Part shown: positions 315-12,850 of the stretch, piece by piece
How the letters are laid out: every line of letters begins with the position of its first letter
Numbering within the stretch: the stretch's first letter is position 1
Assembly: GCF_000720175.1 (NCBI RefSeq)
Contig: NZ_JOIX01000079.1
Span: 1 to 33,696, forward strand
Direction: 5' to 3'
Source of the DNA: Streptomyces sp. NRRL S-337
GTDB lineage: Bacteria > Actinomycetota > Actinomycetes > Streptomycetales > Streptomycetaceae
Length of the DNA: 33,696 nucleotides
The notes under the pieces: model-generated
Database searches by the model: none
What the model saw: the letters and a program-made list of their open reading frames with translations, nothing else
What the model was told of the DNA's origin: nothing
Position numbers and translations under genes: made by a program

Positions 315-977
315 TTATGTGTCGTTGCCGGGGTGGGTGAGGGTGCCGTGGAGGAGGACGGCGATGAGTTCCTCGCTGGTGAGGGGGGTGTCGGCCTCTG
401 AGACGGGGGTGGGGAGGCGGGTGAAGAGGAGGCCCAGGAAGGCACCGGCGACCTTCTCGGGGGCCAGTCGGAAGGCGTCCCGGTCCGGTTCGATCAGCTC
501 GGTGACGGCTTGGCGTAGCGCGGCGGCGGACCGGGCCCGTGGGTCCTCCGGCGGTCCGTCCGGCTTGGTCCCGGCCTCCGGGGCGACGGTTCCGGGCTCG
601 CGGCCGCGGCCGCGGAGGTGACCGGAGGCGTGCAGGGCGCCGACGACCGTACCGATCCGCTCCATATGGGCGCGCAGCGCCTCGGCCGCTTCCGTCAGCC
701 GGGCGGCGAGCGGCTCGTCCAGGGAGACCGAGGCCAGTTCGCGCAGGACGTGGTCCGTGCTGACCGCCTCGCGGACGCAGGCGTCCAGCACCTCGTCCTT
801 GTCCTTGAAGGCCCGGAAGATCGTGGCCTCGCCGATGCCCGCCGCGCGGGCGATCTGGCTGGTGGTGACGGCCGCGCCGTACTCCGCCACCAGCGGCAGC
901 GCGGCGGCCACGATCATGGCCCGGCGCTGTTCCACACTCATGCCGGGTGCGCGCCGGCGTGCAGGTTGTGGGGTCAT
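315..977 (-). CDS. TetR/AcrR-family transcriptional regulator
   Basis: A 220-aa TetR-type repressor: an N-terminal helix-turn-helix (about residues 36-60, ending in the typical GEATIFRAFKDKDEVL segment) binds DNA, and the variable C-terminal domain would bind an unknown ligand. The start at 977 is chosen because a consensus promoter (-35 TTGACG at 1008-1013, 18-bp spacer, -10 TACTCT at 984-989) ends 6 nt before this ATG, which implies a leaderless mRNA. The spacer is filled by a dyad operator, so autorepression is likely. A later Met13 is possible but lacks a ribosome site. The target gene is not obvious; the divergent VOC gene is 250 bp away. The fold is certain, the ligand unknown. Confidence 0.93.
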   Translation of the reverse strand: MTPQPARRRAPGMSVEQRRAMIVAAALPLVAEYGAAVTTSQIARAAGIGEATIFRAFKDKDEVLDACVREAVSTDHVLRELASVSLDEPLAARLTEAAEALRAHMERIGTVVGALHASGHLRGRGREPGTVAPEAGTKPDGPPEDPRARSAAALRQAVTELIEPDRDAFRLAPEKVAGAFLGLLFTRLPTPVSEADTPLTSEELIAVLLHGTLTHPGNDT

Positions 978-983
978 GCCTCC

Positions 984-1013
984 AGAGTACGGAGTGAGTG
1001 CTCACTCCGTCAA
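984..1013 (-). promoter_or_regulatory. TetR-type dyad operator inside tetR promoter
   Basis: The arms ACGGAGTGAG (989-998) and CTCACTCCGT (1001-1010) are perfectly complementary around a 2-bp centre. On the minus strand the dyad sits between -35 TTGACG (1008-1013) and -10 TACTCT (984-989), which are 18 bp apart. A bound TetR dimer would occlude RNA polymerase, so this is very probably the autoregulatory operator of the adjacent gene. Confidence 0.85.
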
Positions 1014-1072
1014 TCATCTGCCGCCCACGGCGGGTTCGCGCGCTGCGCATGGTCGCCGTTCGCTCCTTAGAC

Positions 1073-1096
1073 TTCTTGCAGCGGATTTCTTGCAGC
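1073..1096 (+). repeat. 14-bp-spaced direct repeat in tetR/VOC gap
   Basis: TTCTTGCAGC occurs at 1073-1082 and again at 1087-1096, a direct repeat of period 14. It lies in the 254-bp gap between the divergent TetR and VOC genes. The rest of the gap (1100-1231) is GC-rich, with repeated gtgcc/gggtg words and no clear promoter. A TAGACT hexamer at 1068-1073 could be a -10 for the VOC gene, but no good -35 is visible. Confidence 0.4.
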
Positions 1097-1231
1097 AGGT
1101 CTCGCCGATTGCGGAGTGGGGTGCCGCCGGTGCCGAGTGCCGGGGTGTCCCGGGTGTCCCGGGGTGGGTGCTCTGGCGCGGGTGCTTCGGCGCTGGTGCT
1201 CTTGCCGTCGTCGTGTGGAAGGCGGCGTCTC

Positions 1232-1645
1232 ATGGACTGGAAGCTCGAACTGGTGCCGGTTCCGGTGGCCGATGTGGAGCGGGCCAAGCGCTTCTACAGC
1301 GAGCAGCTGGGCTTCGCCGTCGACCATGACGTCTCGGTCGGTGACCAGGCGCGCATCGTGCAGCTAACGCCGCCTGGGTCCGAGTGCTCGATCGTCATCG
1401 GTGCGGGTACGGGGGTTACCGACGCGCAGCCCGGTTCCGTGCAGGGCCTCCAGCTGGTGGTGTCCGATGTTGCCGCGGCCCGGGCGCAGTTGGTCGAGCG
1501 GGGCGTGACCGTGAGCCCTGTGCAGCACGTCGAGGACGGCGGGCTGGCCGATGGGCCCGGTGGGACGTGGAACTCGTTCGTCTACTTCGTCGACCCCGAC
1601 GGCAACGGCTGGTCGTTGCAGGAGGGGCCCACCGGCGACGGGTAA
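1232..1645 (+). CDS. VOC-family (glyoxalase-fold) protein
   Basis: A 137-aa single-domain protein of the vicinal oxygen chelate superfamily, with two paired beta-alpha-beta-beta-beta modules. Signs are the N-terminal PVPVADVERAKRFYSEQLGF segment and the C-terminal FVYFVDPDGNGWSLQE segment, where Glu is the usual metal ligand. Members range from glyoxalases and dioxygenases to antibiotic-binding proteins, so the substrate cannot be named. The start at 1232 follows a GGAAGG-like ribosome site and removes an unrelated Arg-rich extension. The last codons (Gly-Pro-Thr-Gly-Asp-Gly-stop) are the first unit of the tandem repeat array that follows. It stands alone, divergent from tetR. Confidence 0.88.
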   Translation: MDWKLELVPVPVADVERAKRFYSEQLGFAVDHDVSVGDQARIVQLTPPGSECSIVIGAGTGVTDAQPGSVQGLQLVVSDVAAARAQLVERGVTVSPVQHVEDGGLADGPGGTWNSFVYFVDPDGNGWSLQEGPTGDG

Positions 1646-1844
1646 GGGCTCATCGGCGGAAGGGCGGGGCTCACCGGCGTCCGGGAGGGGGTCGGTGGTG
1701 GTGGGGCGGGCTCACCGGCGACTGGGAGGGTCCGTCGGGGTGGGGAGGGCTCGCCGGCGACCGGGAGGGGCCCGTCGGGCCGGGACGGGCTCACCGGCGT
1801 CCGGGAGGCTCAGCGGCGTGCGGGAGGGCCCAGGCGACGGGTAG
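1625..1844 (+). repeat. About 20-bp degenerate tandem array anchored on a stop codon
   Basis: About eleven units of 18-21 bp. The first (1625-1645) is the coding end of the VOC gene including its TAA. Units beginning gggctcaccggcg follow at 1646, 1667, 1708, 1747 and 1787, with more decayed units at 1688, 1729, 1768, 1808 and 1827. Most units lost the stop; the last reads gggtag. A run of ggcaggc words follows at 1853-1883. No gene is supported in the repeat region. Confidence 0.8.
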
Positions 1845-1938
1845 GGCGACCTGGCAGGCGGCAGGCGGCAGGCGGCTGGCAGATGACGGCTGGGCGGGTT
1901 CGGCCCCTCCCAACTCCGCGGCGGCGCCCGGGTTTCGC

Positions 1939-2010
1939 ACCGCCCTTCGCCCGCCCTTCGCGTCGCCCTCCCTTCGTACCGCCCTCCCTTCGCGCCGCCC
2001 TTCGGCCCGC
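1939..2010. repeat. Low-complexity cgcccttcg repeats
   Basis: Five or six variants of ccgcccttcg(c) occur in a row just before the methyltransferase promoter. No palindrome is evident, and the stretch looks like expanded simple sequence rather than an operator. Confidence 0.6.
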
Positions 2011-2044
2011 CTCCCCCAGCCGAAGTCGTATCTACGATCGGGGG

Positions 2045-2908
2045 ATGGCGACGGTTCGGGAGCAGGAAGCGTTTTTGCGGGCGTTTCACGCAGCGCACCC
2101 CGCGGTGACTGTGCGGACGATGGCGCATGGACGGGCCGAGGACGGGCGGTCGAGTTACGAGATCCTCCGTGATCGGGTGGCGGCCTGCGACAGGGTGCTG
2201 GATCTCGGGTGTGGTGACGGTCTCTTGCTCGAACTCCTCGCCGAGCGGGGACGGCGGGCCGACCGGTCGCTGGCCGACCGGGAGCCGGCCGATCGGGAGC
2301 TTGCCGGACTCGACCTTTCTGCCGAGGAGTTGGCGCTGGCCCGTCGCCGCCCCGGCGTCGCCCGCGCCGACCTGAGGGCCGGGCGGGCGCAGCAACTCCC
2401 CTTCGAGGACGGCCGGTTCGACGGCTGTGTGTCCCATATGGCGCTGATGCTGATGGGTGACGCCGAACAGGTCGCGGCCGAGGTGGCACGGGTGCTCGCG
2501 CCCGGTGGCACGCTGGCGGTCGCCCTGGGGGGTGGTGCGGCCGGGGACGAGGCGTATGCGGCGTTCCTGCGCGTGGCCGAGCCGCTGTTCGCGGCCGCAC
2601 CCGCCGACCAGCGGATTCCCTCGCTCGGCGACCGGCGGCTGCGGAGTCGTGAGGGGTTCGACGCGGTGTTCGGGCCGGCCGGATTCGGGTCCGGGTGCTG
2701 GGAGACCGTACGGATCGACCTCACCGGACCGCCGGAGCGTGTCTGGGCGACCATGAGCGGCTTCTACGATCTGGGGCCGCTCGCCCCCGCCGCCACCGCG
2801 GAACTACGGGCCCGCTTCGAGAGGGAGGCGGCGATCCTGGCACTGTCGGACGGCCGGATCCCGTGCGCGATGCGGGTGCATATCGTCACGGCGGTGCGGG
2901 GTGCGTAG
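2045..2908 (+). CDS. Class I SAM-dependent methyltransferase
   Basis: A 287-aa protein with a Rossmann-type methyltransferase core. Motif I VLDLGCGDG is at residues 51-59, the acidic SAM-ribose loop GLDLS follows, then the RAQQLPFEDGRFDGCVSHMAL segment and a typical post-core ARVLAPGGTLAVAL strand. It resembles the ubiquinone/menaquinone (UbiE-like) and small-molecule methyltransferases; the substrate is unknown. The start is preceded by TACGAT (2033-2038) at 6 nt, which suggests a leaderless transcript. Odd point: between motif I and the acidic loop, codons 2258-2302 are a perfect-frame 15-bp repeat coding ADRSL-ADREP-ADREL, an insertion not expected in the family. The region after its stop is again a stop-anchored repeat. 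Confidence 0.9.
   Translation: MATVREQEAFLRAFHAAHPAVTVRTMAHGRAEDGRSSYEILRDRVAACDRVLDLGCGDGLLLELLAERGRRADRSLADREPADRELAGLDLSAEELALARRRPGVARADLRAGRAQQLPFEDGRFDGCVSHMALMLMGDAEQVAAEVARVLAPGGTLAVALGGGAAGDEAYAAFLRVAEPLFAAAPADQRIPSLGDRRLRSREGFDAVFGPAGFGSGCWETVRIDLTGPPERVWATMSGFYDLGPLAPAATAELRARFEREAAILALSDGRIPCAMRVHIVTAVRGA
2258..2302 (+). repeat. In-frame 15-bp x3 repeat within methyltransferase
   Basis: Three abutting units, gccgaccggtcgctg, gccgaccgggagccg and gccgatcgggagctt, stay in frame and encode the pentapeptides ADRSL, ADREP and ADREL. They lengthen the loop between the glycine-rich SAM motif and the strand that carries the ribose-binding Asp. Confidence 0.85.
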
Positions 2909-2974
2909 TGACGTGGCAGTGACTGGTGGCGTGGCAGTCCGTAGTGACGTGGCGGTGCGTAGCGGCGTGGGGGT
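2900..2974 (+). repeat. Stop-anchored repeat after methyltransferase
   Basis: ggtgcgtagtgacgtggcagtg (from 2900) spans the terminal Ala codon and TAG of the methyltransferase. It recurs as ccgtagtgacgtggcggtg (from about 2938) and, shortened, as gcgtagcggcgtggg (from about 2957). An intermediate decayed copy ends at about 2938. Nothing else is visible before the converging HxlR stop at 3004. Confidence 0.65.
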
Positions 2975-3003
2975 GCCCCAAGGCCCCAACCGCCGCTACC
3001 TCG

Positions 3004-3357
3004 CTACTCCGGATGCCGTTGACCGTAAGTGGCCTCCAAGTGGGGCATGTGGGCGGTGCCCCAGGCGCCGAGTGGGGCGAGAGCCTCGTTGAGGGAGTGG
3101 CCGGCCTCGGTGAGGGAGTATTCGACCCTCGGTGGCACCTCGGGGAAGGTCTCGCGGTGCACGATGCCGTCGGCCTCCAGCTCGCGCAGTTGCTGGGTCA
3201 GGACCTTCTCGGTGATCTTCGGCAGGCCGCGGCGCAGTTCGCCGAACCGATGGGGGCGCTCGGCCAGCGCCCACAACAGCAACACCTTCCATTTGCCGCC
3301 GATGACGTCCACCGCGGCGTCCAGCCCGCATTCGTACGGCTTGTTGCGTGCGCTCAT
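3004..3357 (-). CDS. HxlR-family winged-helix regulator
   Basis: A 117-aa regulator whose whole length is the HxlR winged helix. It shows Cys10 in YECGLDAAVDVIGGKWKV, the LLLWALAERPHRFGELRR helix, the recognition helix LPKITEKVLTQQLRELEADGIVHR, and the wing PPRVEYSLTEAG. HxlR proteins respond to aldehydes, oxidants or other reactive electrophiles, often through the N-terminal Cys. The start at 3357 matches the family length; the open frame upstream is repeat-derived. The neighbour upstream on the same strand is a VOC protein, a frequent pairing of electrophile sensor and detoxifying enzyme, but a repeat-filled gap of 221 bp separates them. Confidence 0.92.
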   Translation of the reverse strand: MSARNKPYECGLDAAVDVIGGKWKVLLLWALAERPHRFGELRRGLPKITEKVLTQQLRELEADGIVHRETFPEVPPRVEYSLTEAGHSLNEALAPLGAWGTAHMPHLEATYGQRHPE

Positions 3358-3380
3358 GACAGGCCCAGCTCCCCCTGATG

Positions 3381-3511
3381 GCGTTCTGACGAGTTCCGGC
3401 GAGTTCTGTCGCGTCCAGACAGGGTCACACGGACCGCGTCCCGACGGGGCCCGACGGGCCGCGTTCCGACAGGGCCCGACGGGTTCCGACGGCTCCTGAT
3501 GTGTTCTGACG
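3381..3511. repeat. Ten-bp periodic decamer array 5' of hxlR
   Basis: Degenerate units of the type g(t/c)tccgacg repeat with an exact 10-bp step (3392, 3402, 3412, 3422, 3447, 3472, 3482, 3492, 3502). Two 15-bp units (3432-3446 and 3457-3471) contain a 5-bp insertion. The array lies directly upstream of the HxlR start and downstream of the VOC stop. No open frame here looks coding. Confidence 0.7.
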
Positions 3512-3578
3512 CGTTCCTCTCGCCGGAGCAAGTATCCAGGGCCGGGGGGGCGGTTGGTGGGCGACGGTCGGTGCGCGC

Positions 3579-3992
3579 TCACAGGCCCTGGGCGGCCATC
3601 CACTCCGGGTCCGGGGCGATCGTCTGGAGGACCTCGATCAGGGTGCCCTCGGGTGCCCAGACGTTGAAGCGGCGCTGCCCCCAGGGCTCGTCGCGCAGCG
3701 GTACGGCGATCGGCACCCCCTTGTCGCGCAGGGCGGCCTCCTCGGCCGCGGCGTCCTCCACCAGGAAGCCGAGGAGGGCGCCGGCGGTCTTCTGGTGGCG
3801 GAAGTCCGGCGGCATGGCCTCGTGCCCGCGCAGGGTGAAGTCCAGTGCGCAGTCGGGGTGTTGGGGGTGCTGGAGGCTGGCGTACCAGTCGAGTTCGACG
3901 AGGGGCTGGAAGCCGAAGTGGTCGACGTAGAAGCGGGTGCTGGCCGCGACGTCGTCGGTGAGCAGGGCGGTGCCGAACTTGGCGAAGCGCAT
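3579..3992 (-). CDS. VOC-family protein (glyoxalase/dioxygenase-like)
   Basis: A 137-aa VOC protein: N-terminal module with FGTALLTDDVAASTRFYVDHFGF, C-terminal module with LGFLVEDAAAEEAALRDKG and the final strand FNVWAPEGTLIEVLQ, where Glu is the likely metal ligand. It belongs to the short, often resistance- or detoxification-linked VOC proteins; the substrate is unknown. The start has a GAGAGGA ribosome site 5 nt upstream. The gene is divergent from a TetR regulator across a promoter region with a perfect 14-bp palindrome, so that TetR is its probable regulator. HxlR lies downstream on the same strand. Confidence 0.88.
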   Translation of the reverse strand: MRFAKFGTALLTDDVAASTRFYVDHFGFQPLVELDWYASLQHPQHPDCALDFTLRGHEAMPPDFRHQKTAGALLGFLVEDAAAEEAALRDKGVPIAVPLRDEPWGQRRFNVWAPEGTLIEVLQTIAPDPEWMAAQGL

Positions 3993-4078
3993 AAGGATCC
4001 TCTCCGGGCGCGGCCGGGCGGTCCGGCGGCGCGGTGGTGTGCCACCGGATCGGGGCGGTCACCGCTACCACCGGTGCA

Positions 4079-4100
4079 ACAACTGCAGTTGTAGTACTCT
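4079..4100 (+). promoter_or_regulatory. Perfect 14-bp palindrome plus -10, divergent promoter
   Basis: ACAACTGCAGTTGT (4079-4092) is a perfect palindrome. It is followed at once by TACTCT (4095-4100), a good -10 for the rightward TetR gene, with a leader of about 54 nt. The palindrome would fall in the -35/-10 spacer of that promoter and inside the leftward VOC promoter region, so one TetR dimer could repress both genes. Confidence 0.75.
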
Positions 4101-4160
4101 GGGCGTAGTGGTTGCAAGGGGTTTTGGAAAATTCGGTCGGCACGGTGCGAGGTGGGCGAG

Positions 4161-4748
4161 ATGGTGCGTAATCCGGAGCGGCGGGCGGCGTTGGTGGATG
4201 CCGCGATCGAGGTGCTGGCGAGGGACGGTGCGCGCGGGCTCACCTTCCGGGCCGTCGACGCGGCCGCGGGGGTGCCCGGCGGCACCGCGTCCAACTACTT
4301 CACCAGCCGGGACGATCTGCTGGCCCAGGTCACCGGCCAGATCCACCAGCGGATCGCGCCCGACCCGGACGAGGTCGCCGAGGTGATGGCGGCGCCGCGC
4401 AGCCGGGCGCTGGTGGTCGACCTGATGCGGTGGATCAACCGCCGGGTGACCGAGAACCGCACCGGCTATCTGGCGATGCTGGAGCTGCGACTGGAGGCCA
4501 CCCGCCGCCCCGAGCTGCAGGCCGAGCTGACCCGGGTCATGCGGGCGACGCTCGACGACGACATCGGCTTCCACCTGGAGAGCGGGCTGCCGGGCGACCG
4601 GACCGCCGTGCTGCTGACGTATCTCGCCATGACCGGGCTGATGCTGGAGCAGCTCACCCTGCCCGGCGTGGTGCCCACCGAGGAGACCGACGGGCTGATC
4701 GAGGCACTCGTCGACCGCACCATCGGGCCGGAGGGGACGTCCGAATAG
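4161..4748 (+). CDS. TetR/AcrR-family transcriptional regulator
   Basis: A 195-aa TetR-type regulator. The helix-turn-helix is within LTFRAVDAAAGVPGGTASNYFTSRDDLL (about residues 26-54), and the C-terminal ligand domain begins with the VTGQIHQRI helix. The ATG at 4161 is preferred over an upstream GTG at 4152 because a GAGGTGG ribosome site (4149-4155) is 5 nt before it and because MVRNPERR is a natural N-terminus for this type. It probably controls itself and the divergent VOC gene through the palindrome at 4079-4092. The ligand is unknown. Confidence 0.92.
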   Translation: MVRNPERRAALVDAAIEVLARDGARGLTFRAVDAAAGVPGGTASNYFTSRDDLLAQVTGQIHQRIAPDPDEVAEVMAAPRSRALVVDLMRWINRRVTENRTGYLAMLELRLEATRRPELQAELTRVMRATLDDDIGFHLESGLPGDRTAVLLTYLAMTGLMLEQLTLPGVVPTEETDGLIEALVDRTIGPEGTSE

Positions 4749-4825
4749 CCCCGGGTGACGGAGTCCTCCGAGCCCGAATGTGGGGGTCCCAGGCGGAGGC
4801 CCTCAGCCTGCGGACCTCAGCCAGA

Positions 4826-4954
4826 CCTCGGCCCCGTAAGGGTGCGCCCTACCCCCGTAAGGGCGCGCCCTGACTCCCGTAAGGGTGCGCCCCGCACCGT
4901 GACGGTGCGCGCCAACTCCCGTACGGGTGCGGCCTAGCCGCCGTAAGGGCGCGC
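4826..4954 (-). repeat. Stop-anchored 21/22-bp tandem array with palindromic cores
   Basis: Six units of 21 or 22 bp on the minus strand. The first (4934-4954) encodes Ala-Arg-Pro-Tyr-Gly-Gly-stop of the FMN reductase. Units at 4913-4933, 4891-4912, 4869-4890, 4848-4868 and 4826-4847 lie downstream. Most carry a core CCCTTACGGG; unit two has the perfect palindrome CCCGTACGGG. The rest of the gap back to the TetR stop at 4748 shows nothing recognisable. Confidence 0.85.
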
Positions 4955-5500
4955 CGTGCGGGCCTCGCGGAGGGCCAGGGCCCACCACTCCAGCTGGCGG
5001 AGCAGGGCGCCGGCGGCCTTTTCGGCGGGGGCCGGGTCGTGCAGCCGGCCCTCGTCGTCGAAGAGGTTGCCGGCCAGCGCGAAGCTCACCGTTTCGCGCA
5101 CCGTCGTCGCGTGCAACTCGGCGAAGACCAGCCGCAGTTGCTCGACGGCACGGAGGCCGCCGGAGATCCCGCCGTACGAGACGAAGCCCACCGGCTTGGC
5201 CTGCCACTGCATGAACAGCAGGTCGATGGCGTGCTTGAGCGGGGCCGGGAAGGAGTGGTTGTACTCCGGGGTGATCACCACGAACGCGTCCGCCTCCTCC
5301 ACGCGCTTGGCGAAGGACTCGTACTCCTCGCTGCCGTGCCGCAGCTCGTACGGGCGGACCTCGGCCAGATCGATCACGTCGAGCTCGACATGGGCGCGGG
5401 TCTCCGCCTGCCGGGTGAACCAGTTCGCGATGACGGGCGCGAACCGGCCCTCCCGTGTGCTGGCGACGATGACTGCGAGGCGGTACGTGTGCTCGGACAT
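4934..5500 (-). CDS. NADPH-dependent FMN reductase family protein
   Basis: A 188-aa flavodoxin-like reductase (NADPH-dependent FMN/quinone reductase family). The N-terminal strand LAVIVASTREGRFAPVIANWF binds the FMN phosphate. The middle motif FVVITPEYNHSFPAPLKHAIDLL is diagnostic, and GFVSYGGISGGLRAVEQLR follows. Likely role: cytosolic reduction of flavins, quinones or redox-cycling compounds. The start at 5500 follows GGAGGA; a longer frame exists but contains only leader sequence. A SoxR-type promoter lies 68 nt upstream, which suggests induction by redox-active metabolites. S. coelicolor SoxR controls a reductase of this kind. The 3' end is the first unit of a tandem array. Confidence 0.92.
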   Translation of the reverse strand: MSEHTYRLAVIVASTREGRFAPVIANWFTRQAETRAHVELDVIDLAEVRPYELRHGSEEYESFAKRVEEADAFVVITPEYNHSFPAPLKHAIDLLFMQWQAKPVGFVSYGGISGGLRAVEQLRLVFAELHATTVRETVSFALAGNLFDDEGRLHDPAPAEKAAGALLRQLEWWALALREARTARPYGG

Positions 5501-5568
5501 GCGGGTCCTCCGTGGCGGGGTGGCCGGGTGGCCGGGGTGGTGGACGGCGGGCTCGCCGTCGGGACCCG

Positions 5569-5599
5569 ACGCTAAGACCTCAAGCAAAGTTGAGGTCAA
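5569..5599 (-). promoter_or_regulatory. SoxR-type promoter of FMN reductase
   Basis: On the minus strand, -35 TTGACC (5594-5599) and -10 TAGCGT (5569-5574) are separated by exactly 19 bp, the overlong spacer used by MerR-family activators. The spacer is centred on a dyad with arms GACCTCAA (5576-5583) and TTGAGGTC (5590-5597). Its core CCTCAA-N6-TTGAGG matches the SoxR box. No soxR gene lies in the window, so regulation would be in trans. Confidence 0.85.
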
Positions 5600-5682
5600 G
5601 CGCGCCCAGGACCGCCGCCACGGAGGCCGGAGCGATGGAGGTTGGAGCGATGGAGGCCGCCGTCACGGAGAGCCGCCCGACG

Positions 5683-5724
5683 GGTCACTCCATGCCGGTC
5701 ACCCCACGCCGGTCACTCCACGCC
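5683..5724 (-). repeat. Three abutting 14-bp copies of the ankyrin gene terminus
   Basis: Read on the minus strand, GGCGTGGAGTGACC (5711-5724) encodes the last Gly-Val-Glu and the TGA stop of the ankyrin gene. It is repeated directly as GGCGTGGGGTGACC (5697-5710) and GGCATGGAGTGACC (5683-5696). A separate direct repeat, ggagcgatggagg, lies at 5629-5641 and 5644-5656. Confidence 0.9.
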
Positions 5725-6144
5725 GAACAGCTTCAGCAGCTCCGTCTTCTGGAACATCTGCGCCGTCTCGATCGCCGACGGCGCGCCCGCCGACGGGTCG
5801 GCCCCGTGCGCCATCAGCACCTTGACGACCTCGTCGTCGCCCTTGAACACCGCACCGGCCAGCGGCGTCTGGCCGCGGTCGTTGGGGCGGTTGGGGTCGG
5901 CGTCGCGCTGCAGCAGCGCCTCCACCGTCGCCGGGTGGCCGTGGTACGCCGCCAGCATCACGAGCGAGTCGCCCTTGTCGTTCGTCAGGTTGGCGGGCAC
6001 GCCGGCGTCCACGTACGCGGCGACGGTGTCGGTGTCTCCGTGCCGCGCCAGGTCGAACACCTTGGACGCGAGCTGCAGTACCTCGGGGTCATGCGCATGC
6101 TCGATCGACTCGGGCCCCTGCGGCTGGGGATTCGCGTCGCTCAT
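5713..6144 (-). CDS. Ankyrin-repeat protein
   Basis: A 143-aa cytosolic protein made almost wholly of ankyrin repeats. A first degenerate repeat covers about residues 25-50 (FDLARHGDTDTVAAYVDAG). Two clear repeats follow at 58-85 (GDSLVMLAAYHGHPATVEA) and 91-117 (GQTPLAGAVFKGDDEVVKV), then a C-terminal cap. Ankyrins mediate protein binding; similar small proteins occur next to catalase genes in some bacteria, but no catalase is present here. The start at 6144 gives a natural acidic N-terminus. The promoter region upstream is filled by GCAGGTACC words. The stop codon is part of a triplicated 14-mer. Partner unknown. Confidence 0.9.
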   Translation of the reverse strand: MSDANPQPQGPESIEHAHDPEVLQLASKVFDLARHGDTDTVAAYVDAGVPANLTNDKGDSLVMLAAYHGHPATVEALLQRDADPNRPNDRGQTPLAGAVFKGDDEVVKVLMAHGADPSAGAPSAIETAQMFQKTELLKLFGVE

Positions 6145-6168
6145 GGTCGCCGGCCTCCTGCTGTCGTG

Positions 6169-6290
6169 GGTGGTACGTGCATGATCAGTGCGGGACGAGT
6201 GAGCGGTACCTGCATGGCACCTGCGGAGTACCTGCGCGGTACGTCCTTGATACCTGTGCGGTACCTGCGTGCACTTGTTCCTGCACTGTC
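6169..6290. repeat. GCAGGTACC-type degenerate repeats upstream of ankyrin gene
   Basis: Plus-strand words gcggtacctgc, gagtacctgcg, gcggtacgtcc, gatacctgtgc and gcggtacctgcgtgc follow one another at irregular 10-20 bp steps. They occupy the 5' region of the ankyrin gene, so they may overlap its promoter. The stretch 6291-6372 shows no further feature. Confidence 0.55.
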
Positions 6291-6372
6291 CTCGCCACTT
6301 TATGCAGGCCACCGCCCTTCCGGCAGCGCCAGCGCACCCGGCGCCGGCGCCAACCCCAAGAGGAGTCGGCAC

Positions 6373-6455
6373 CAGCCCGTTGCGTGAGAACGCCCCGCGT
6401 CAGCCCGTTACGTGAGAACGCCGCGTCAGCCCGTTGCGTGAGAACAGCCGCGTCA
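6373..6455 (-). repeat. Stop-anchored 26-28-bp x3 repeat after asparaginase
   Basis: On the minus strand the asparaginase stop begins the unit TGACGCGGC-(t)gTTCTCACGCAACGGGC. Units lie at about 6429-6455, 6403-6428 and 6375-6402, and each begins with TGA. The terminal coding word GCGGCGTTC itself resembles the unit interior. No gene lies in this gap. Confidence 0.85.
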
Positions 6456-7448
6456 GAACGCCGCGCGGATCTCGCCCACCCGGACCCCGCCGCCCAGCAG
6501 CGGGACCTCCGCCAGACGGGACAGCACCGGCGCGTCGACGCCCATCAGGCGGAGGGTGCGGGCGAGGACCGGGCCGAGGGCGCGACCGGCACCGTCGTCG
6601 ATCTTGAATGCCAGTGCCCGGCCGTCCGGCAGGGCCAGCGCCTGGACCGCCTCGGCGCCCATCTTCGACAGCGTGCCGGGCAGCTCCTGCATCAGCCAGG
6701 TGTCGGGGCGGCGGGTGCCGGCGACGTACTCCGGGTGGGCGCGCATCGCGTCCGCCACCTGCCGCTCCGGAGTGCCCGGGTCCGCCATGACGAAATGCCG
6801 GAAGGAGCGGGCCAGGCCCGTCAGGGAGAGCGAGAGCAGCGGGGCGCCGCAGCCGTCCGTACCGACGTGCGCGACGTCCTCGCCGCTCGCGCCGCGCACG
6901 GCCTCGGCCACCAGCTGCTGCAGCGGATGCGCCGGATCCAGGTACGAGGCCAGCGGCCAGCCGTTGCGCGCCGAGGCGGCGAGCATCGCGGTGTGCTTGC
7001 CCGAGCAGTTCATGGCCAGCCGGTCGCGGACCTGGCCCGCGGCGAGGTACGACTCCGCCTCCTCCGGGTCCAGCGGCAGGTCGGGCGGCGTCTGGAGCTG
7101 GTCGGCGGTCAGCCCGTGCTCGGCCAGCATGGTCCGGACGAGATCGAGGTGGAAGGACTCGCCGGAGTGGCTCGCGGCGGCCAGCGCCAGCCGCTCGCCG
7201 GACAGCTCAAGGCCCGCCCGCAGTACGGCCGCGGCCTGCATCGGCTTGTTCGTGGAACGCGGGAAGACCGGCGCCGTCACATCGCCCAGCGCCGTCTCGA
7301 CGCTGCCGTCCGCCGCCAGCACCACCAGCGAGCCGCGGTGCCGGCCCTCGACGAAACCGGAGCGCACGACCTCGGCGAGGACGGGGGAGGCCGCCTCCGG
7401 GGAACGCGGGGTCGGTACGGATATCGGGGTGGGCGAGGACGAGGTCAT
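6453..7448 (-). CDS. L-asparaginase, thermolabile (AnsA, R. etli type) family
   Basis: A 331-aa asparaginase of the Rhizobium etli type (distinct from the E. coli type). It would hydrolyse L-asparagine to aspartate and ammonia in the cytosol. Family signatures are VVRSGFVEGRHRGSLVVL near the N-terminus, PVFPRSTNKPMQAAAVL with the catalytic Ser-Thr-Asn-Lys segment, ALAAASHSGE, MNCSGKHTAML with the metal-binding Cys and Lys-His, and GTDGCGAPLLSLSL. The start at 7448 follows a GGAAGG ribosome site. It lies 58 bp downstream of rsiG on the same strand and may be cotranscribed. Its stop codon starts a triplicated repeat. Confidence 0.9.
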   Translation of the reverse strand: MTSSSPTPISVPTPRSPEAASPVLAEVVRSGFVEGRHRGSLVVLAADGSVETALGDVTAPVFPRSTNKPMQAAAVLRAGLELSGERLALAAASHSGESFHLDLVRTMLAEHGLTADQLQTPPDLPLDPEEAESYLAAGQVRDRLAMNCSGKHTAMLAASARNGWPLASYLDPAHPLQQLVAEAVRGASGEDVAHVGTDGCGAPLLSLSLTGLARSFRHFVMADPGTPERQVADAMRAHPEYVAGTRRPDTWLMQELPGTLSKMGAEAVQALALPDGRALAFKIDDGAGRALGPVLARTLRLMGVDAPVLSRLAEVPLLGGGVRVGEIRAAF

Positions 7449-7506
7449 CGGCGGCCTTCCGGACAGGGAACGGGGGCCGACCCGCGTCCGGAAGGTTTGT
7501 GGCCCG

Positions 7507-8322
7507 TCAGGACAGCAGGTCGTCGACTTGTGCTTCGCCTTCACGGTACCTGCGGGCGATTTCCGCACTGCACTCGTCGGTGGTGCGCTGCAGCGCACCA
7601 CGGCGCTGCGACACCTGGCGTTCGTAGCGGATCAGCCGGCCCATCGCCTCGTGCAGCTCCTGGTCGGTCCGCGCGGTCAGGTCGGACAGCTCGACCTCAC
7701 CGAGCATCTCGTCCGCCATCCTTCGGTACTCCTCGCTGTGCGGTGTGCCGAGCGTCACATGCCGGGCCGACGAGCGGTGCCGCGACGGCAGGTCCGTCAG
7801 GATCTCCGGCAGCCGGTCCAGCAGCGGCGAGTGCTGGGCGGTACGGCGGGCGATCTCGGCCCGCAGGATGTCGATCCGGCCCTGCAGCAACCGCCGCAGA
7901 TAGCTCAGATCGGCCTCCTCCTGCTGCGAGTCCCGGCGTACGACCCGCAGCTCGGGCAGCCCCAGCCCGGAGAGATCGGGTGTGGTGGCCGGGCGGCAGC
8001 GGTCGCGCTGCTGCGGGGGGCGGGGGTGCTGCGCCTGGCCTGCCTGGAGCATGGGGCCGTCCTTGGTGCCGGCCGGCTCACCAGGAGCCGCTGCCGTGGT
8101 CGTCGTGGTCGTCGGGGTGGATGGGGTGGATGTGGTGGTGGGGGATGCGGTGGTGGTAGTTGACGCGGTGGGTGCCGCCGGAGCGGCGGGTGCTGTCCGT
8201 CCGGTGCCGGACGCGGTGCTGGCGGCTGGCGCCGGTGGTTCGGTCGGTTTCGTACGGGCGCCCGGTGTCGTACGGGCGCTCGGTACGGGACCGGGTGTCT
8301 GTCCGGCGCCGGCAGTGCTCAT
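7507..8322 (-). CDS. rsiG: RsiG, c-di-GMP-binding anti-sigma factor for WhiG
   Basis: RsiG holds the sporulation sigma factor WhiG inactive when it binds cyclic di-GMP. The diagnostic motif E-x3-S-x2-R-x3-Q-x3-D occurs twice, on the two arms of an antiparallel coiled coil: E136-S140-R143-Q147-D151 and E234-S238-R241-Q245-D249 (271-aa numbering). Both copies are intact, as in the Streptomyces protein. The first 90 residues are low-complexity Pro/Ala/Thr, with an almost pure Thr stretch near 53-76. An internal ATG at 8052 with an AAGGA ribosome site 7 nt upstream would give a 181-aa form that starts just before the conserved part, so the true start is uncertain. dtd is divergent upstream. Confidence 0.93.
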   Translation of the reverse strand: MSTAGAGQTPGPVPSARTTPGARTKPTEPPAPAASTASGTGRTAPAAPAAPTASTTTTASPTTTSTPSTPTTTTTTAAAPGEPAGTKDGPMLQAGQAQHPRPPQQRDRCRPATTPDLSGLGLPELRVVRRDSQQEEADLSYLRRLLQGRIDILRAEIARRTAQHSPLLDRLPEILTDLPSRHRSSARHVTLGTPHSEEYRRMADEMLGEVELSDLTARTDQELHEAMGRLIRYERQVSQRRGALQRTTDECSAEIARRYREGEAQVDDLLS

Positions 8323-8496
8323 GAATGATTCCGTCCCCTCATCCGGGCCGCGTCCAGGGCATGTTGTCCATGAAACGCACCACGTGCACGCATCGTGCCA
8401 CTCTGTGCGGTCCTTCTGCAGGGCCATGGCACCCGAACGGCCCCCGTGGGGGCACGGCTGTCCGAAGCCGTACCGCCGACCGGCATGATGGCGGGT

Positions 8497-8922
8497 ATGC
8501 GAGCCGTGGTGCAGAGAGTTGACGGCGCCCGCGTCGAGGTGGCGGGCGAGACGGTCGGGGAGATCGTCGGGGAGGGGCTGTGCGTGCTGGTGGGCGTCAC
8601 TCACGACGACACCTCGGAGAAGGCGGCACAACTCGCCCGCAAGCTGTGGTCGGTGCGGATGCTGCAGGGCGAGAAGTCCTGCTCGGACACCGGGGCGCCG
8701 CTGCTGGTGATCAGCCAGTTCACTCTCTACGGTGACGCGCGCAAGGGCCGCCGTCCCACCTGGAACGCCGCAGCCCCCGGCCCGGTCGCCGAACCACTGG
8801 TCGACGAGGTCGTCGCCCAGCTGCGAGCGCTGGGCGCCCATGTGGAGACCGGCCGCTTCGGCGCACAGATGAAGGTCTCACTGACCAACGACGGGCCGTT
8901 CACGGTCCTGGTCGAGGTGTGA
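8497..8922 (+). CDS. dtd: D-aminoacyl-tRNA deacylase
   Basis: A 141-aa cytosolic proofreading enzyme that hydrolyses D-aminoacyl-tRNAs (and Gly-tRNAAla), which recycles tRNA and excludes D-amino acids. The family hallmarks are present: N-terminal MRAVVQRV, the SQFTLYGD motif that forms the chiral pocket, [12 protein letters not shown], and the C-terminal [13 protein letters not shown] that supplies the cross-subunit Gly-Pro motif. Length is normal. The start at 8497 gives the canonical N-terminus; CATGAT ends about 7 nt upstream, so the message may be leaderless. The 174-bp gap to divergent rsiG shows no clear operator. The stop lies in a duplicated 14-mer. Confidence 0.96.
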
Positions 8923-8944
8923 GGGTGGGGGCGTGAGGGGGCGG
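8917..8944 (+). repeat. 14-bp duplication at dtd stop codon
   Basis: gtgtgagggtgggg (8917-8930) contains the last Val codon region and TGA of dtd and is followed at once by gcgtgagggggcgg (8931-8944). Confidence 0.6.
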
Positions 8945-8983
8945 GCGAGGCCCGATCGCACCCCGCGGAGGGGCGCTCTCAGC

Positions 8984-9017
8984 GGACGCCCTTAGGGGCT
9001 TCCCTTAGGGGGCGTCC
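8984..9017. terminator. Possible bidirectional terminator between dtd and ygfZ
   Basis: GGACGCCC (8984-8991) and GGGCGTCC (9010-9017) are perfectly complementary across an 18-nt loop, 60 bp after the dtd stop. There is no T-tract, which is common for GC-rich actinobacterial terminators. The convergent ygfZ gene ends 340 bp further on. Confidence 0.5.
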
Positions 9018-9103
9018 TCGGGGGCGTCTAGCGGGGGACTGGTGCCCGTAAGGGGGAGTCGAACGGATTCCCTAGGGGACGCGAGCACCCCCTGCGGGCC
9101 CAC

Positions 9104-9235
9104 AACGTGGCGGCACAGGCGGGTATTCCCGGGCGGTAGGCGGCGAACGTGACGGGGCAGGCGGGGCGTTCCCGGGTCGTACGCAGCGAACGTGGCGGGG
9201 CAGGGGGTCTTCCCGGGTGCCTGGCCGACTCCCCC
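9104..9235. repeat. 42/43-bp tandem repeat, three copies
   Basis: aacgtggcggcacaggcggg starts the first copy at 9104. The second starts at 9146 and the third, truncated, at 9189. All carry aacgtg-cgg-gcagg followed by ttcccggg about 20 nt later. Around it (9018-9103 and 9236-9355) I see only GC-rich sequence with cccttaggg-like words and a ggggccgggt duplication near 9272-9290, and no gene. Confidence 0.8.
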
Positions 9236-9355
9236 TCCGGCAGCACGCGCAACCCCCGCCGGTCCTACGTGGGGCCGGGTGGGGCCGGGTGAGGCGTTCC
9301 ATGGCACCCGACAGCCCCCCAGAAGCCCCCGCAGCCTCGCGGCCCCCCGCTGGGC

Positions 9356-10336
9356 CTACGGCTCCACCACGACCTCCTGGGCCGCCGCTGTGCCGCCCGC
9401 GGTCAGTTGGGCGTCCACGGGGACGTTTCGCTTGACCAGGGCCAGGGCGATGGGGCCGAGTTCGTGGTGGCGGGCCGAGGTGGTGACGAAGCCGAGTTGG
9501 CGGCCCTCCTCGCCGTCGGCGGCGAGCCGGACCGGGGCGCCGTGCGGGGGCAGGTGCACCTCGCTGCCGTCCAGGTGCAGGAAGACCAGCCGGCGCGGCG
9601 GCTTCCCCAGGTTGTGGACCCGGGCGACGGTCTCCTGGCCGCGGTAGCAGCCCTTCTGGAGGTGGACGGCGGTGCCGAGCCAGCCGAGCTCGTGCGGGAT
9701 GGTGCGGTGGTCGGTCTCCAGGCCGAGCCGCGGGCGGTGCGCCTCGACACGCAGCGCCTCCAGGGCCAGCACGCCGATCGCCGGGCCGTGGGTGTCCGCG
9801 AACGCCGACAGCTCCGCGCGCGGCAGGAACAGATCACGGCCGTGCGCGGTCTCCCGGACGACGGTGCCCTCGGGGACCTCGGCGATGGACCCGGCCGGGA
9901 GGTGGACCACCGCGATCTCGTCCGTCCGGTCGGCGATCTCGACCCGGTAGAAGAACTTCATGCTTTCCAGGTAGGCGATCAGCGCCTCCTGGCCACCCGG
10001 CTCGGTGTGCATCCACGTCGTTTCCCCGTCGTCGACGAGGTACAGCGCATGCTCGATGTGGCCGTGCGCGGAGAGGATCAGCGCCTCCGTGGCGTGGCCG
10101 GGCGGGAGTTCGCTGACGTGCTGGGTGAGCAGCAGATGCAGCCAGCTCAGCCGCTCGGGGCCGCTGACGGTGACCACACCGCGGTGCGAGAGGTCCACGA
10201 AGCCGGTGCCGTCGGCGAGCGCGCGCTGCTCCCGGAACAGGTCGCCGTAGTGCGCGGCGACGCCTTCGTCGGGGGCCTCGGCAGGGACAGCGCCGGGCAG
10301 CGACAGCAGCGGGCTGACGGGTGATTGTCGCAGCAT
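9356..10336 (-). CDS. ygfZ: YgfZ/GcvT-family folate-binding protein
   Basis: A 326-aa folate-binding protein of the YgfZ/IBA57 type, which supports maturation or repair of iron-sulfur enzymes in the cytosol and uses a tetrahydrofolate-like cofactor. The signature KGCYRGQE (residues 228-235, with the conserved Cys230) is intact. The GcvT-like N-terminal half shows FVDLSHRGVVTVSGPERLSWLHLLLTQ, and the C-terminal barrel ends normally. It lies 45 bp downstream of nur on the same strand, so readthrough from nur is possible. It converges with dtd across a repeat-filled gap. Confidence 0.93.
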   Translation of the reverse strand: MLRQSPVSPLLSLPGAVPAEAPDEGVAAHYGDLFREQRALADGTGFVDLSHRGVVTVSGPERLSWLHLLLTQHVSELPPGHATEALILSAHGHIEHALYLVDDGETTWMHTEPGGQEALIAYLESMKFFYRVEIADRTDEIAVVHLPAGSIAEVPEGTVVRETAHGRDLFLPRAELSAFADTHGPAIGVLALEALRVEAHRPRLGLETDHRTIPHELGWLGTAVHLQKGCYRGQETVARVHNLGKPPRRLVFLHLDGSEVHLPPHGAPVRLAADGEEGRQLGFVTTSARHHELGPIALALVKRNVPVDAQLTAGGTAAAQEVVVEP

Positions 10337-10381
10337 GGGCCCAGCCTACGACGCGGTCGCGGCTTTCGGCCGGGGGCGGCC

Positions 10382-10819
10382 TCAGCCCTCGTCGCCGGCG
10401 GCCTTGGCGCGGCAGTCCGCGCACCGGCCGAAGATCGCGAAGTGCTTCATATCGGTCTCGAAGCCGAACTGTTCGCGCAGCGTCGCGGTGAACGGCTCGG
10501 CCACCGACAGGTCCGCCTCGATGACCTCGGTGCAGTCCCGGCACACCAGGTGGATGTGGTGGTGGCGGTCGGCGAGGTGGTACGTCGGAGCGCCGTGGCC
10601 GAGGTGGGCGTGGCTGACCAGGCCCAGCTCCTCCAGGAGCTCCAGGGTCCGGTAGACCGTGGAGATGTTCACGCCGCCGGCCGTCTTGCGCACCTCGGTG
10701 AGGATGTCGTCCGGGGTGGCGTGCTCCAGCCTGTCCACGGCCTCCAGGACGAGCTGCCGCTGCGGGGTCAGGCGGTATCCGCGCCTGCGGAGGTCGCTCT
10801 GCCAGTCGGTGGTCACCAC
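10382..10819 (-). CDS. nur: Nur, nickel-responsive Fur-family regulator
   Basis: A 145-aa Fur-family repressor. With nickel bound, Nur represses nickel uptake and the iron superoxide dismutase gene in Streptomyces. It has an N-terminal winged helix (LTPQRQLVLEAVDRL and NISTVYRTLELL) and a C-terminal dimerisation domain. The residues of both metal sites of the S. coelicolor protein are present: H33, H86, H88 and H90 (nickel site) and H70, H72 and H126 (M-site). C93, C96, C133 and C136 form two CxxC pairs. The start is GTG at 10819; TACACT (10826-10831) ends 6 nt before it, so the mRNA is probably leaderless with its own promoter. A cobalamin riboswitch lies 320 bp upstream on the same strand. 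Confidence 0.95.
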   Translation of the reverse strand: MVTTDWQSDLRRRGYRLTPQRQLVLEAVDRLEHATPDDILTEVRKTAGGVNISTVYRTLELLEELGLVSHAHLGHGAPTYHLADRHHHIHLVCRDCTEVIEADLSVAEPFTATLREQFGFETDMKHFAIFGRCADCRAKAAGDEG

Positions 10820-10918
10820 ACCGCCAGTGTAGGAGGGTGGACGGCGACGGGGTACGCACCGCCGTCAGCCACCGCCCACCCGCACTGCCCGGCGGCCAGC
10901 CGCCCGCCGGTAAGCCCC

Positions 10919-11030
10919 TCAGCCGCCCGCCCGTACGCCGCGCAGGTAGCGCGACAGAGCGCCGATCGCGGCCGGGTTGCGGGGGCTCTCGACGAGTTCG
11001 GGCGGGGCGGGCCAAGGGGCGGACCCCTCA
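10919..11030 (-). pseudogene. Possible remnant of a gene's 3' end
   Basis: On the minus strand, one frame ending in TGA at 10919-10921 reads like a protein C-terminus (...ELVESPRNPAAIG, then ALSRYLRGVRAGG). About 90 percent of its third codon positions are G or C from roughly 11030 to the stop. Upstream in the same frame that bias falls away and there is no start codon. I do not recognise the family. It may be what is left of a gene once controlled by the riboswitch just upstream. Confidence 0.35.
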
Positions 11031-11139
11031 CGGCTCGGGCCGCGTCCTACGGAAGGAAGTTCTACGGAAGGAGCGGCGGCGCGGCGCGCTGGTGCCCGGC
11101 GGCGTCCCCTCGCAGTCCACGGCGAGTTGTCGGGAACGT

Positions 11140-11255
11140 GCGCCGCCGCGGGCGATCGGACTTGCGGAAGGGGGCTTCCGCTTACCGTTGCGGGTCAGTG
11201 CCGGACTCTCACCGGACTTCCCCCGCGGGGGCGCGTCACGCCTTTCGTGCGGGCC
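11140..11255 (-). ncRNA. Cobalamin riboswitch
   Basis: On the minus strand the conserved cobalamin core is clear: GGGGAAG-TCCGGTGAGAGTCCGG (11202-11224), then CACTGACCCGCAACGGTAAG (11182-11201), a 7-bp hairpin GCGGAAG-cccc-CTTCCGC (11164-11181), and the 3' element CAAGTCCGATCGCC. The element starts only a few bases after the nitrobindin-like gene's stop and points away from it. Such switches repress B12 synthesis, B12-independent isozymes or cobalt uptake when adenosylcobalamin is bound. Here no intact gene follows within 320 bp; the next one, nur, has its own promoter. Confidence 0.87.
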
Positions 11256-11257
11256 GG

Positions 11258-11845
11258 TCAGCCCTGGTACGGAGTGCCGTCGGGGTTGAAGAAGGAGACC
11301 CCGTCCGGCATGTCGTCGGGCAGGCTCTCGGCCCACTCCTTCAGGTCGGCGACCTTCTTCAGGTGCGCGGACATGTACGGCCGCAGCGGCACGTCCGGGG
11401 TCGACTTCTCGCCGACCCACATCAGGTCGCTGTTGACGTAGCCGTAGAGCCGCTTGCCGCCGCTGTACGGGCCGGCCGAGGCGGTCCGCGCGATGGCGTC
11501 GGTGGCCAGGTCGATCTGCGGCTTCTGGTGGGCCAGCTCGCCGTACCAGACCTCGACGACGCCCTGGTCCCGGATCATCACGACCTCGACCTTGCGGTCC
11601 GCGTCGACGCGCCAGTAGCCGCTCTCGCTCTCCAGCGGGCGGACCTTCTTGCCCTGGGAGTCGAGCACCCAGCTGTGCGAGTGGTACTCCAGGAAGTCAC
11701 GGCCGTCGTGGGAGAAGGTGACCTCCTGCCCGAAGTTGCACTTCTCGGCACCGGGGAAGTCGGCGACGCCGGCGCCCTCCCAGTGGCCGAGGAGGAAGGC
11801 GAGCGGCACCAGGGCCGGGTTCAGGTCGGAGGGGATCTCGATCAT
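11258..11845 (-). CDS. Nitrobindin-like FABP-family protein
   Basis: A 195-aa ten-stranded beta-barrel protein of the FABP/nitrobindin family (DUF1794). The N-terminal GHWEGAG at residues 20-26 is the family's GxWxGxG motif. The C-terminal MSAHLKKV carries His161, which I infer to be the haem-proximal histidine (alignment needed). Family members bind haem b and convert peroxynitrite to nitrate; a fatty-acid role was assumed earlier. Acts in the cytosol, with no signal peptide. The start at 11845 gives the usual length; the ribosome site is weak. A tiny membrane-peptide gene starts 150 bp upstream on the same strand, and a cobalamin riboswitch follows the stop. Confidence 0.85.
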   Translation of the reverse strand: MIEIPSDLNPALVPLAFLLGHWEGAGVADFPGAEKCNFGQEVTFSHDGRDFLEYHSHSWVLDSQGKKVRPLESESGYWRVDADRKVEVVMIRDQGVVEVWYGELAHQKPQIDLATDAIARTASAGPYSGGKRLYGYVNSDLMWVGEKSTPDVPLRPYMSAHLKKVADLKEWAESLPDDMPDGVSFFNPDGTPYQG

Positions 11846-11892
11846 GAGAGCTCAGGCGATCTGTAGAGAGGGGAAAGGGGTGTCCGCGTGCG

Positions 11893-11994
11893 TCAGCGCT
11901 GGCCCTGGTACAGCTTCGCCCAGGTCAGACCGGCGAACGCGATGACGCCGACGGCGACCAGAACCAGCAGGGTGGTGAAGAATGCCTCAAGCAC
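11893..11994 (-). CDS. 33-residue single-helix membrane protein
   Basis: A small ORF of 33 codons with a GTG start at 11994 and a strong AAGGAG ribosome site 7 nt upstream. It encodes LEAFFTTLLVLVAVGVIAF followed by AGLTWAKLYQGQR: one hydrophobic helix of about 20 residues, then a Lys/Arg-bearing tail on the likely cytosolic side. Codon third positions are mostly G or C. A TAGACT hexamer on the minus strand about 40 nt upstream (near 12040) is a candidate -10. It lies upstream of the nitrobindin-like gene (48-bp gap) and divergent from the DsrE-like gene. Function unknown. Confidence 0.75.
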   Translation of the reverse strand: MLEAFFTTLLVLVAVGVIAFAGLTWAKLYQGQR

Positions 11995-12107
11995 GGGCGC
12001 GCTCCTTGGACGGAGTGAGGATGTAACGGACCGCTTGCGAGTCTAGTCGGCGGCATCGGCCACGGCGCTGTGAGGTCTGCCGCCCGCCCGCGCCTACTCT
12101 TGGCCCT

Positions 12108-12473
12108 ATGGCGAAGAAGCTCGTGATCAAGGTGACGGCGGGGGCGGATGCACCCGAGCGGTGCTCGCAGGCGTTCACGGTGGCGGCGGTGGCGGCGGCC
12201 AGCGGCGTCGAGGTGTCGCTGTGGCTGACCGGGGAGTCGGTGTGGTTCGCACTGCCCGGGCGGGCGGCGGAGTTCGAGCTGCCGCACGCGGCTCCGCTGC
12301 CGGAGCTGATCGACGGCATCCGGGCGGGCGGTGGCGCGATCACGGTCTGCACGCAGTGCGCGGCCCGTCGCAACATCGAGCAGAAGGACCTGATCGAGGG
12401 CGCGGGCATCGCCGGGGCCCAGGTGTTCGTCAGCGAGATCATGCCGGACGACGTCCAGGCGCTGGTCTACTGA
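12108..12473 (+). CDS. DsrE-like small protein
   Basis: A 121-aa protein of the DsrE/DsrF-like fold, used elsewhere in sulfur relay. It has an N-terminal strand KKLVIKVTAGADAPERCSQAF, a helix-strand repeat, and a CTQC pair (Cys81, Cys84) near the C-terminal strand, where DsrE proteins carry their reactive cysteine. A role in sulfur trafficking is inferred from the cysteines and from the rhodanese/DUF1416 operon 1 kb away. The ATG follows TACTCT (12095-12100) at 7 nt, so the mRNA is probably leaderless. The stop region is tandemly duplicated. Confidence 0.82.
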   Translation: MAKKLVIKVTAGADAPERCSQAFTVAAVAAASGVEVSLWLTGESVWFALPGRAAEFELPHAAPLPELIDGIRAGGGAITVCTQCAARRNIEQKDLIEGAGIAGAQVFVSEIMPDDVQALVY

Positions 12474-12504
12474 GCACGGTTCTACTGAGCACGGTCTCCT
12501 GACC
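12464..12504 (+). repeat. Three 12-15-bp copies of the DsrE-like gene's stop region
   Basis: ggtctactgagcac (12464-12477) holds the final Tyr codon and TGA. Copies ggttctactgagcac (12478-12492) and ggtctcctgacc (12493-12504) follow directly, each with its own TGA. Confidence 0.88.
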
Positions 12505-12512
12505 GCGGGTGT

Positions 12513-12553
12513 CGCGGTGTCCTGCCCGCGCGGGAGCGGACGGGGACACCGCG
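12513..12553. terminator. Bidirectional terminator between DsrE-like and DUF3099 genes
   Basis: CGCGGTGTCC (12513-12522) and GGACACCGCG (12544-12553) pair perfectly over a 21-nt loop that contains its own cccgcgcggg palindrome. It sits between two convergent genes. The word CACCCGCGG, from the DUF3099 gene's last codons (12563-12574), also recurs on the minus strand at about 12549-12557 and 12501-12509. Confidence 0.7.
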
Positions 12554-12562
12554 GGTGTCCGT

Positions 12563-12850
12563 CTACCGCGGGTGCTTGTCGTCGCCGCGGTCGTCGAGTT
12601 CGCGCCACCAGCGGTCCGATTCCGGGTCGCCGGACTCGTCCCACCAGCGTTCGCCGGGCTCGCGGCGGTTGCCGATGATCGCCGCGACCGGCGGGATGAC
12701 CATGGCGACGACGCACATGCCGACCGCGACCGGCACCGACCACAGCCGGACCACGCCCCAGGCCAGCACGAACAGCACGAGGCACACGCCCATCAGCACG
12801 AAGTACCGGCGATGACGACGCTCTGCGGGCGACCGTTGGTGCGCGTACAC
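12563..12850 (-). CDS. DUF3099-family membrane protein
   Basis: A 95-aa actinobacterial membrane protein: basic N-terminus (RSPAERRHRRY), two adjacent hydrophobic helices (FVLMGVCLVLFVLAWGVV and VAVGMCVVAMVIPPVAAII) and an acidic tryptophan-rich tail (RWWDESGDPESDRWWRELDD). This is the DUF3099 pattern; function unknown. The GTG at 12850 is chosen because it gives the family's short N-terminus; longer starts add an unrelated Arg/Pro/Ala stretch that overlaps a terminator. Its last codons (His-Pro-Arg-stop) are echoed downstream. Confidence 0.82.
   Translation of the reverse strand: MYAHQRSPAERRHRRYFVLMGVCLVLFVLAWGVVRLWSVPVAVGMCVVAMVIPPVAAIIGNRREPGERWWDESGDPESDRWWRELDDRGDDKHPR

Follow-up and report, generated by a model that had tools for sequence, protein, structure and literature searches.

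In the 33,696-nucleotide contig NZ_JOIX01000079.1 of Streptomyces sp. NRRL S-337 (analysed over its whole length and hereafter called the window; contig C79 of a 227-contig, 9.06-Mb genome; window GC content 72%), the last codons of several genes are repeated together with the stop codon in short tandem arrays. Across the sampled genomes such stop-spanning duplications exceed chance and are 3'-sided, and in about 5% of the gene ends with long spacers a duplication running across the stop can be detected. General tandem duplication by slippage, together with purifying selection, very probably explains these copies, and no process directed at gene ends is needed.

Stop-spanning duplications and controls

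The sample combines 1.23 Mb of the window's own genome (1.2 Mb plus the window, a non-random draw from the 9.06 Mb) with 0.4 Mb from each of three further genomes, two from congeners and the third from another family. Genes were called by a custom script, by which 79% of the own sample is coding, so that missed genes count as spacer. The main detector requires at least 14 matches in a 16-mer and covers spacers of at least 110 nt and unit sizes of about 8-45 nt. With the four genomes pooled it finds 49 of 937 stops spanned by a duplication, compared with 7/937 at control positions -45 to -35 in the coding sequence (CDS) and 6 of 1202 starts; a second CDS control at -70 to -60 gives 10/937 (a hand sum over the four genomes), and shuffled spacers give 0/937. 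The local, 3'-sided copying on both strands that a sequence-only reading of the window had described is borne out by these counts, as is the excess over the shuffled control it had proposed, and the intragenic and 5' segments that it had named for comparison lie well below the stops.

The spacer past the stop is copied at a similar rate (67, 70, 62, 50 and 51 of 937 in the 10-nt bins from 0-10 to 40-50 nt), which gives no indication that the gene terminus is targeted and speaks against the suggestion, made in the same reading, of a dedicated terminus-duplicating process. The region 3' of genes appears to tolerate copies and not to attract them. The exact ratio of spanning to spacer hits varies with the match threshold; at 13/16, 29/476 stops are spanned in the own genome, versus 37-52/476 in the spacer bins. 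A 20-mer version (at least 15/20 matches at a lag of 8-60 nt), applied to the own genome, gives 14/562 for stops, 2/718 for starts, 1/562 for shuffles and 5/453 and 4/453 for intragenic sites, while anchors in the spacer interior (105/2956, 62/2371 and 32/1152) equal or exceed the stops. Arrays detected by Tandem Repeats Finder (TRF; score at least 40) cross 40/581 stops and 8/731 starts, and occupy 11-12% of the bases in the first 80 nt past stops and about 2% in the 20 nt directly upstream of starts. Within -30 to +12 of stops 52 arrays are listed, some of them exact duplications that include the stop.

Lags between copies are multiples of three in 38 of 39 CDS cases, a count that chance in-frame matches due to codon structure may inflate, but in only 65 of 166 spacer cases; the frame dependence of stop-spanning copies is weak (29/65). 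An origin of the arrays as coding repeats was rejected because lags are mostly out of frame, both in these 65 cases and among the 52 listed arrays, 18 of which have lags that are multiples of three (by eye). In a neutral simulation using the same detector and two hand-set event rates, hits reach 0.28 and 0.4% in CDS, 2.3 and 4.0% across stops and 2.7-3.3% and 5.4-6.7% in spacer, the observed counterparts being 0.75, 5.2 and 5.3-7.5%.

The proposed explanation starts from direct observations, namely the rates, the weak frame dependence, lineage specificity and the lack of a clear hotspot at the stop. Replication slippage or a similar local copying process would produce short tandem duplications all over this GC-rich genome and in its relatives, and these would persist where they are harmless, while selection would purge them within CDS and at starts. 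The expected outcome is the distribution outlined above, with duplications rare and nearly always at lags of a multiple of three in CDS, almost none at starts and many in 3' spacers. A duplication with its left edge in the last codons and its right edge in the spacer would keep the original stop in the first copy; because translation stops in this first unit, the protein would be unchanged, and such an event should be as neutral as one lying wholly in the spacer. The window arrays would then be the left fringe of a general spacer process. That the stop always lies in the first unit, as the sequence-only reading emphasized, is a near-tautology, since the first stop met in frame is where translation ends.

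Relatives and regional distribution

Stop-spanning duplications are lineage-specific and present in all four sampled actinomycete genomes. Ten congeners keep the gene order around much of the first 13.5 kb of the window, with aligned stretches about 75-94% identical; most spacers cannot be aligned between the window and these congeners, and none of the window's own arrays was seen by eye in the ten. The same gene ends are duplicated with different units in some congeners: dsrE in G301, the DUF3099 gene in G072, the methyltransferase gene in G145 and the asparaginase gene in G373. Of 169 conserved neighbour pairs between G145 and G301, 17 have an event, each time confined to one of the two species and never shared. 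Arrays are present or absent between species, with one genome per species compared. Sequence after the last and after the first copy was compared with the relatives' spacers for 8 spanned ends among 176 collected, ends of poor orthology being skipped; the spacers were too diverged for either to fit clearly better. Contigs C1 and C3 of the own genome were left out of the synteny comparison, a 6-kb piece of each having given mostly scattered matches in five congeners.

The genome from a different family of the same order (G014) shows a matching pattern with smaller numbers (4 of 114 stops spanned). Escherichia coli K-12, treated with the identical script (184 genes called in 250 kb, below annotation), has 0/87 spanned stops and 1/87 spacer hits; this near-zero rate suggests that frequent duplication may be a trait of high-GC actinomycetes, with one species outside the order compared.

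Spanned stops are commoner in the window (4/20) than elsewhere in the own sample (26/585; Fisher P 0.014), which is probably why nine gene ends stood out in the sequence-only reading. Per 20-kb block, spacer repeats cluster (chi-square P 1.3e-7) and spanning and spacer rates correlate (rho 0.60); the stop-spanning repeats alone show no significant clustering (P 0.11). Rich blocks with 6-7 hits per 10-17 stops occur in contigs C78, C79 (the window), C80 and C14, and empty ones (0/29 stops) in C11 and C12.

Weighing of alternative explanations

Several observations weigh against slippage combined with selection as the whole explanation. Spanning hits amount to about 0.82 of the mean spacer rate in the data, versus about 0.66 and 0.73 in the simulation (computed by hand). 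The spacer carrying the event is the longer one in only 12 of the 17 G145/G301 pairs (not significant), and in the closest pair of relatives (G355 and G397, 94% identical) none of the 11 listed indels of 6-200 nt is a clean tandem duplication. Spanning lags in the own genome are multiples of three in 17 of 30 cases, which is over one third. In addition, the near-gene rate over all spacers is 2.0 points above the deep rate (confidence interval, CI, 0.4-3.5), the excess in co-directional spacers being 2.7 points (CI 0.8-4.7), and array edges in the own genome concentrate 0-10 nt past the stop (24 versus 3-11 in other 10-nt spacer bins, 480 stops), as do TRF edges in the two bins flanking the stop (16 and 20 versus 2-11 elsewhere). 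The positional excess and the edge pile-up favour an improbable alternative in which duplication is raised specifically at 3' ends by a process linked to them (transcription termination, R-loops or repair where transcripts end), as does a somewhat higher rate at convergent than at co-directional ends (35/500 versus 30/672, P 0.07). It is similarly doubtful that, beside neutral slippage, the 30 nt around actinomycete gene 3' ends are duplicated somewhat more than deeper spacer through a process coupled to where transcription or translation finishes; in that case new spacer DNA would repeatedly be copied from gene ends. However, among stops followed by at least 160 nt of spacer (686, all orientations) the spanning rate exceeds the deep rate by only 0.6 points (CI -1.3 to 2.5), and for the convergent ones (261) the duplication rate stays level from the stop out to +100 nt, near minus deep being 0.9 points (CI -1.8 to 3.6). 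In co-directional spacers (425 stops) the rate falls towards the next gene, and the near-gene excess over all spacers probably arises from promoter constraint in their deep part. The edge pile-up may reflect arrays that end at the wall formed by the CDS, although a true excess is also possible. The rate at stops was not found to exceed that in the rest of the same spacers, the edge pile-up pointing the opposite way. Folding also argues against a gene-end process and against slippage at terminator structures, which the sequence-only reading had considered as a cause: the mean fold z value relative to plain shuffles is -0.28 for spanned ends (59), -0.54 for spacer-hit ends (100 folded of 116) and -0.73 for unhit ends (250 of 900), with no stronger folding of spanned than of unhit ends (P 0.27) or of the unduplicated orthologues of spanned ends (17 versus 152, P 0.62).

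Slippage with purifying selection also accounts for the data better than retention of copies by selection because extra stop codons catch readthrough, a protective role that the sequence-only reading had raised. TGA or TAG is frequent in the units (by eye) and the in-frame lags of the own genome are compatible with such retention, but copied stop bases match no better (178/195) than other copied bases (781/845), the other three genomes have spanning in-frame lags in 12 of 35 cases and the spacer past the stop is copied at a similar rate, making this role very unlikely. Chance similarity in sequence of 72% GC is given equally little weight as a general explanation, considering the complete absence of spanned stops from shuffled spacers; two of the window's gene ends, those with stops at 315 and 8922, do lie within chance. 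Insertion of a mobile or dispersed repeat family at gene ends, which the presence of several arrays near one another in one contig might suggest, is hardly credible. The units differ from locus to locus by eye, in agreement with the sequence-only reading, which had called them unrelated between genes. The unit at stop 4934, for which the genome was searched, has four exact matches, all within the window, and two one-mismatch matches elsewhere (a reversed control pattern has six), and a scan of the window against Rfam at gathering scores gave no match. The copies are adjacent and direct, and their locus specificity rests on this genome search for the 4934 unit and on inspection by eye for the others. 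A plasmid search with one stretch of the window gave no match.

Gene ends in the window

For each of 34 window stops, the last 20 nt including the stop were compared with the sequence 8-60 nt beyond and with 500 shuffles; six stops have P<0.05, where about 1.7 are expected by chance. The sequence-only reading had listed nine duplicated gene ends. Six of them are recovered by this 20-mer test (1645, 4934, 5713, 6453, 12473 and, marginally, 12563) and that at 2908 by the 16-mer test, whereas those at 315 and 8922 pass neither. Seventeen stops are called up to position 12574, and the remaining eight all lack P<0.05, 10382 being nearest (0.066). Repeat periods at the window gene ends run from 14 to about 42 nt, a wider range than the 12-28 bp previously given. 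Pfam matches above the cut-off identify the products as TetR, glyoxalase, methyltransferase, FMN reductase, ankyrin, asparaginase II, D-Tyr deacylase and DsrE proteins; the match to DUF3099 is weak and below the cut-off.

On the forward strand, the 3' end and stop (1645) of the glyoxalase/VOC gene lie in a degenerate array at 1621-1828 (TRF period 21, score 122), which is also detected with a longer period of 39-40 at 1625-1808 (score 174-187); the stop has 15/20 matches at a lag of 42, reached in 0/500 shuffles. An 18-nt array of 3.9 copies at 2901-2970 (TRF 84; lag-scan score 30) starts with the final 8 nt of the methyltransferase gene, the stop of which (2908) passes the 16-mer test (15/16) and fails the 20-mer test (P 0.83). 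Two perfect 15-nt copies cross the stop of the DsrE-like gene (12473) at 12466-12495 (TRF 60, 100%; 20-mer P 0.018; 16-mer 15/16). The 14-nt repeat at the dtd stop (8922) at 8919-8947 is weak and within chance (TRF only 44; 20-mer P 0.21).

On the reverse strand, the FMN reductase gene (stop 4934) has its 3' end within a 22-nt array at 4832-4955 (TRF 115-151; 20-mer P 0.01). The units of this array are partly palindromic, one holding a perfect 10-nt palindrome (by eye), so that successive hairpins could fold in this spacer. A 14-nt array of 3.1 copies at 5683-5725 lies over the 3' end of the ankyrin-repeat gene (stop 5713; TRF 72; 20-mer 0/500 shuffles; 16-mer 15/16), and a 26-nt array of 3.1 copies at 6373-6456 extends to the asparaginase II stop (6453; TRF 134; 20-mer P 0.014; 14/16 at lag 40 in the 16-mer test). 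The DUF3099-like gene (stop 12563) has a weak copy at a lag of 17 nt at 12546-12582 (13/20, marginal P 0.04), where TRF lists no array. The 24-nt array beside the tetR stop (315), at 247-312, ends 2 nt short of it (TRF 76; 20-mer P 0.65), with a degenerate copy about 71 nt away seen by eye only. Separately, a GT-rich repeat with a 9-nt lag at 8095-8193 falls within, or immediately before, the portion encoding the N terminus in the gene with stop 7507.

Comparison with known repeat systems

Intergenic DNA in these genomes seems to be renewed by local copying, to which gene 3' ends contribute, and this affects the reading of spacers, where such copies can appear as false 'elements' or false terminators. 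A description of stop-spanning duplications as a general actinomycete pattern was not found in the openly licensed literature, as judged from titles and abstracts among the matches listed. The MIRU elements of mycobacteria overlap stop and start codons and, like the arrays described here, are intergenic units at gene junctions. However, they form a dispersed family of related sequences, and no such family was noticed among the present arrays, for which the 4934 unit was searched genome-wide and the rest were compared by eye.

In one report (PMC2734929), the rnc-fpg1 spacer of the Mycobacterium tuberculosis complex consists of 279-358 bp of direct repeats that vary between isolates, and the corresponding spacer in other mycobacteria is short, at 54 bp or less among the table entries considered. 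The array described there begins 40 bp past the rnc stop and so does not span it, unlike those in the window. The TAACTGA repeats of marine Beggiatoaceae, as presented in PMC4679880, have stops in all frames in their forward copies and hence necessarily occur at the ends of open reading frames; they are a single dispersed 7-nt family, whereas the units here are locus-specific and 14 to about 42 nt long. The closest likeness is with slippage duplications and bacterial minisatellite or variable-number tandem-repeat loci, which are likewise tandem, located in spacers, lineage-specific and built from locus-specific units. The restriction to frame within CDS and the freedom from it in spacer agree with this type, which offers a neutral baseline for functional claims on 3' repeats and makes a new mechanism unnecessary.

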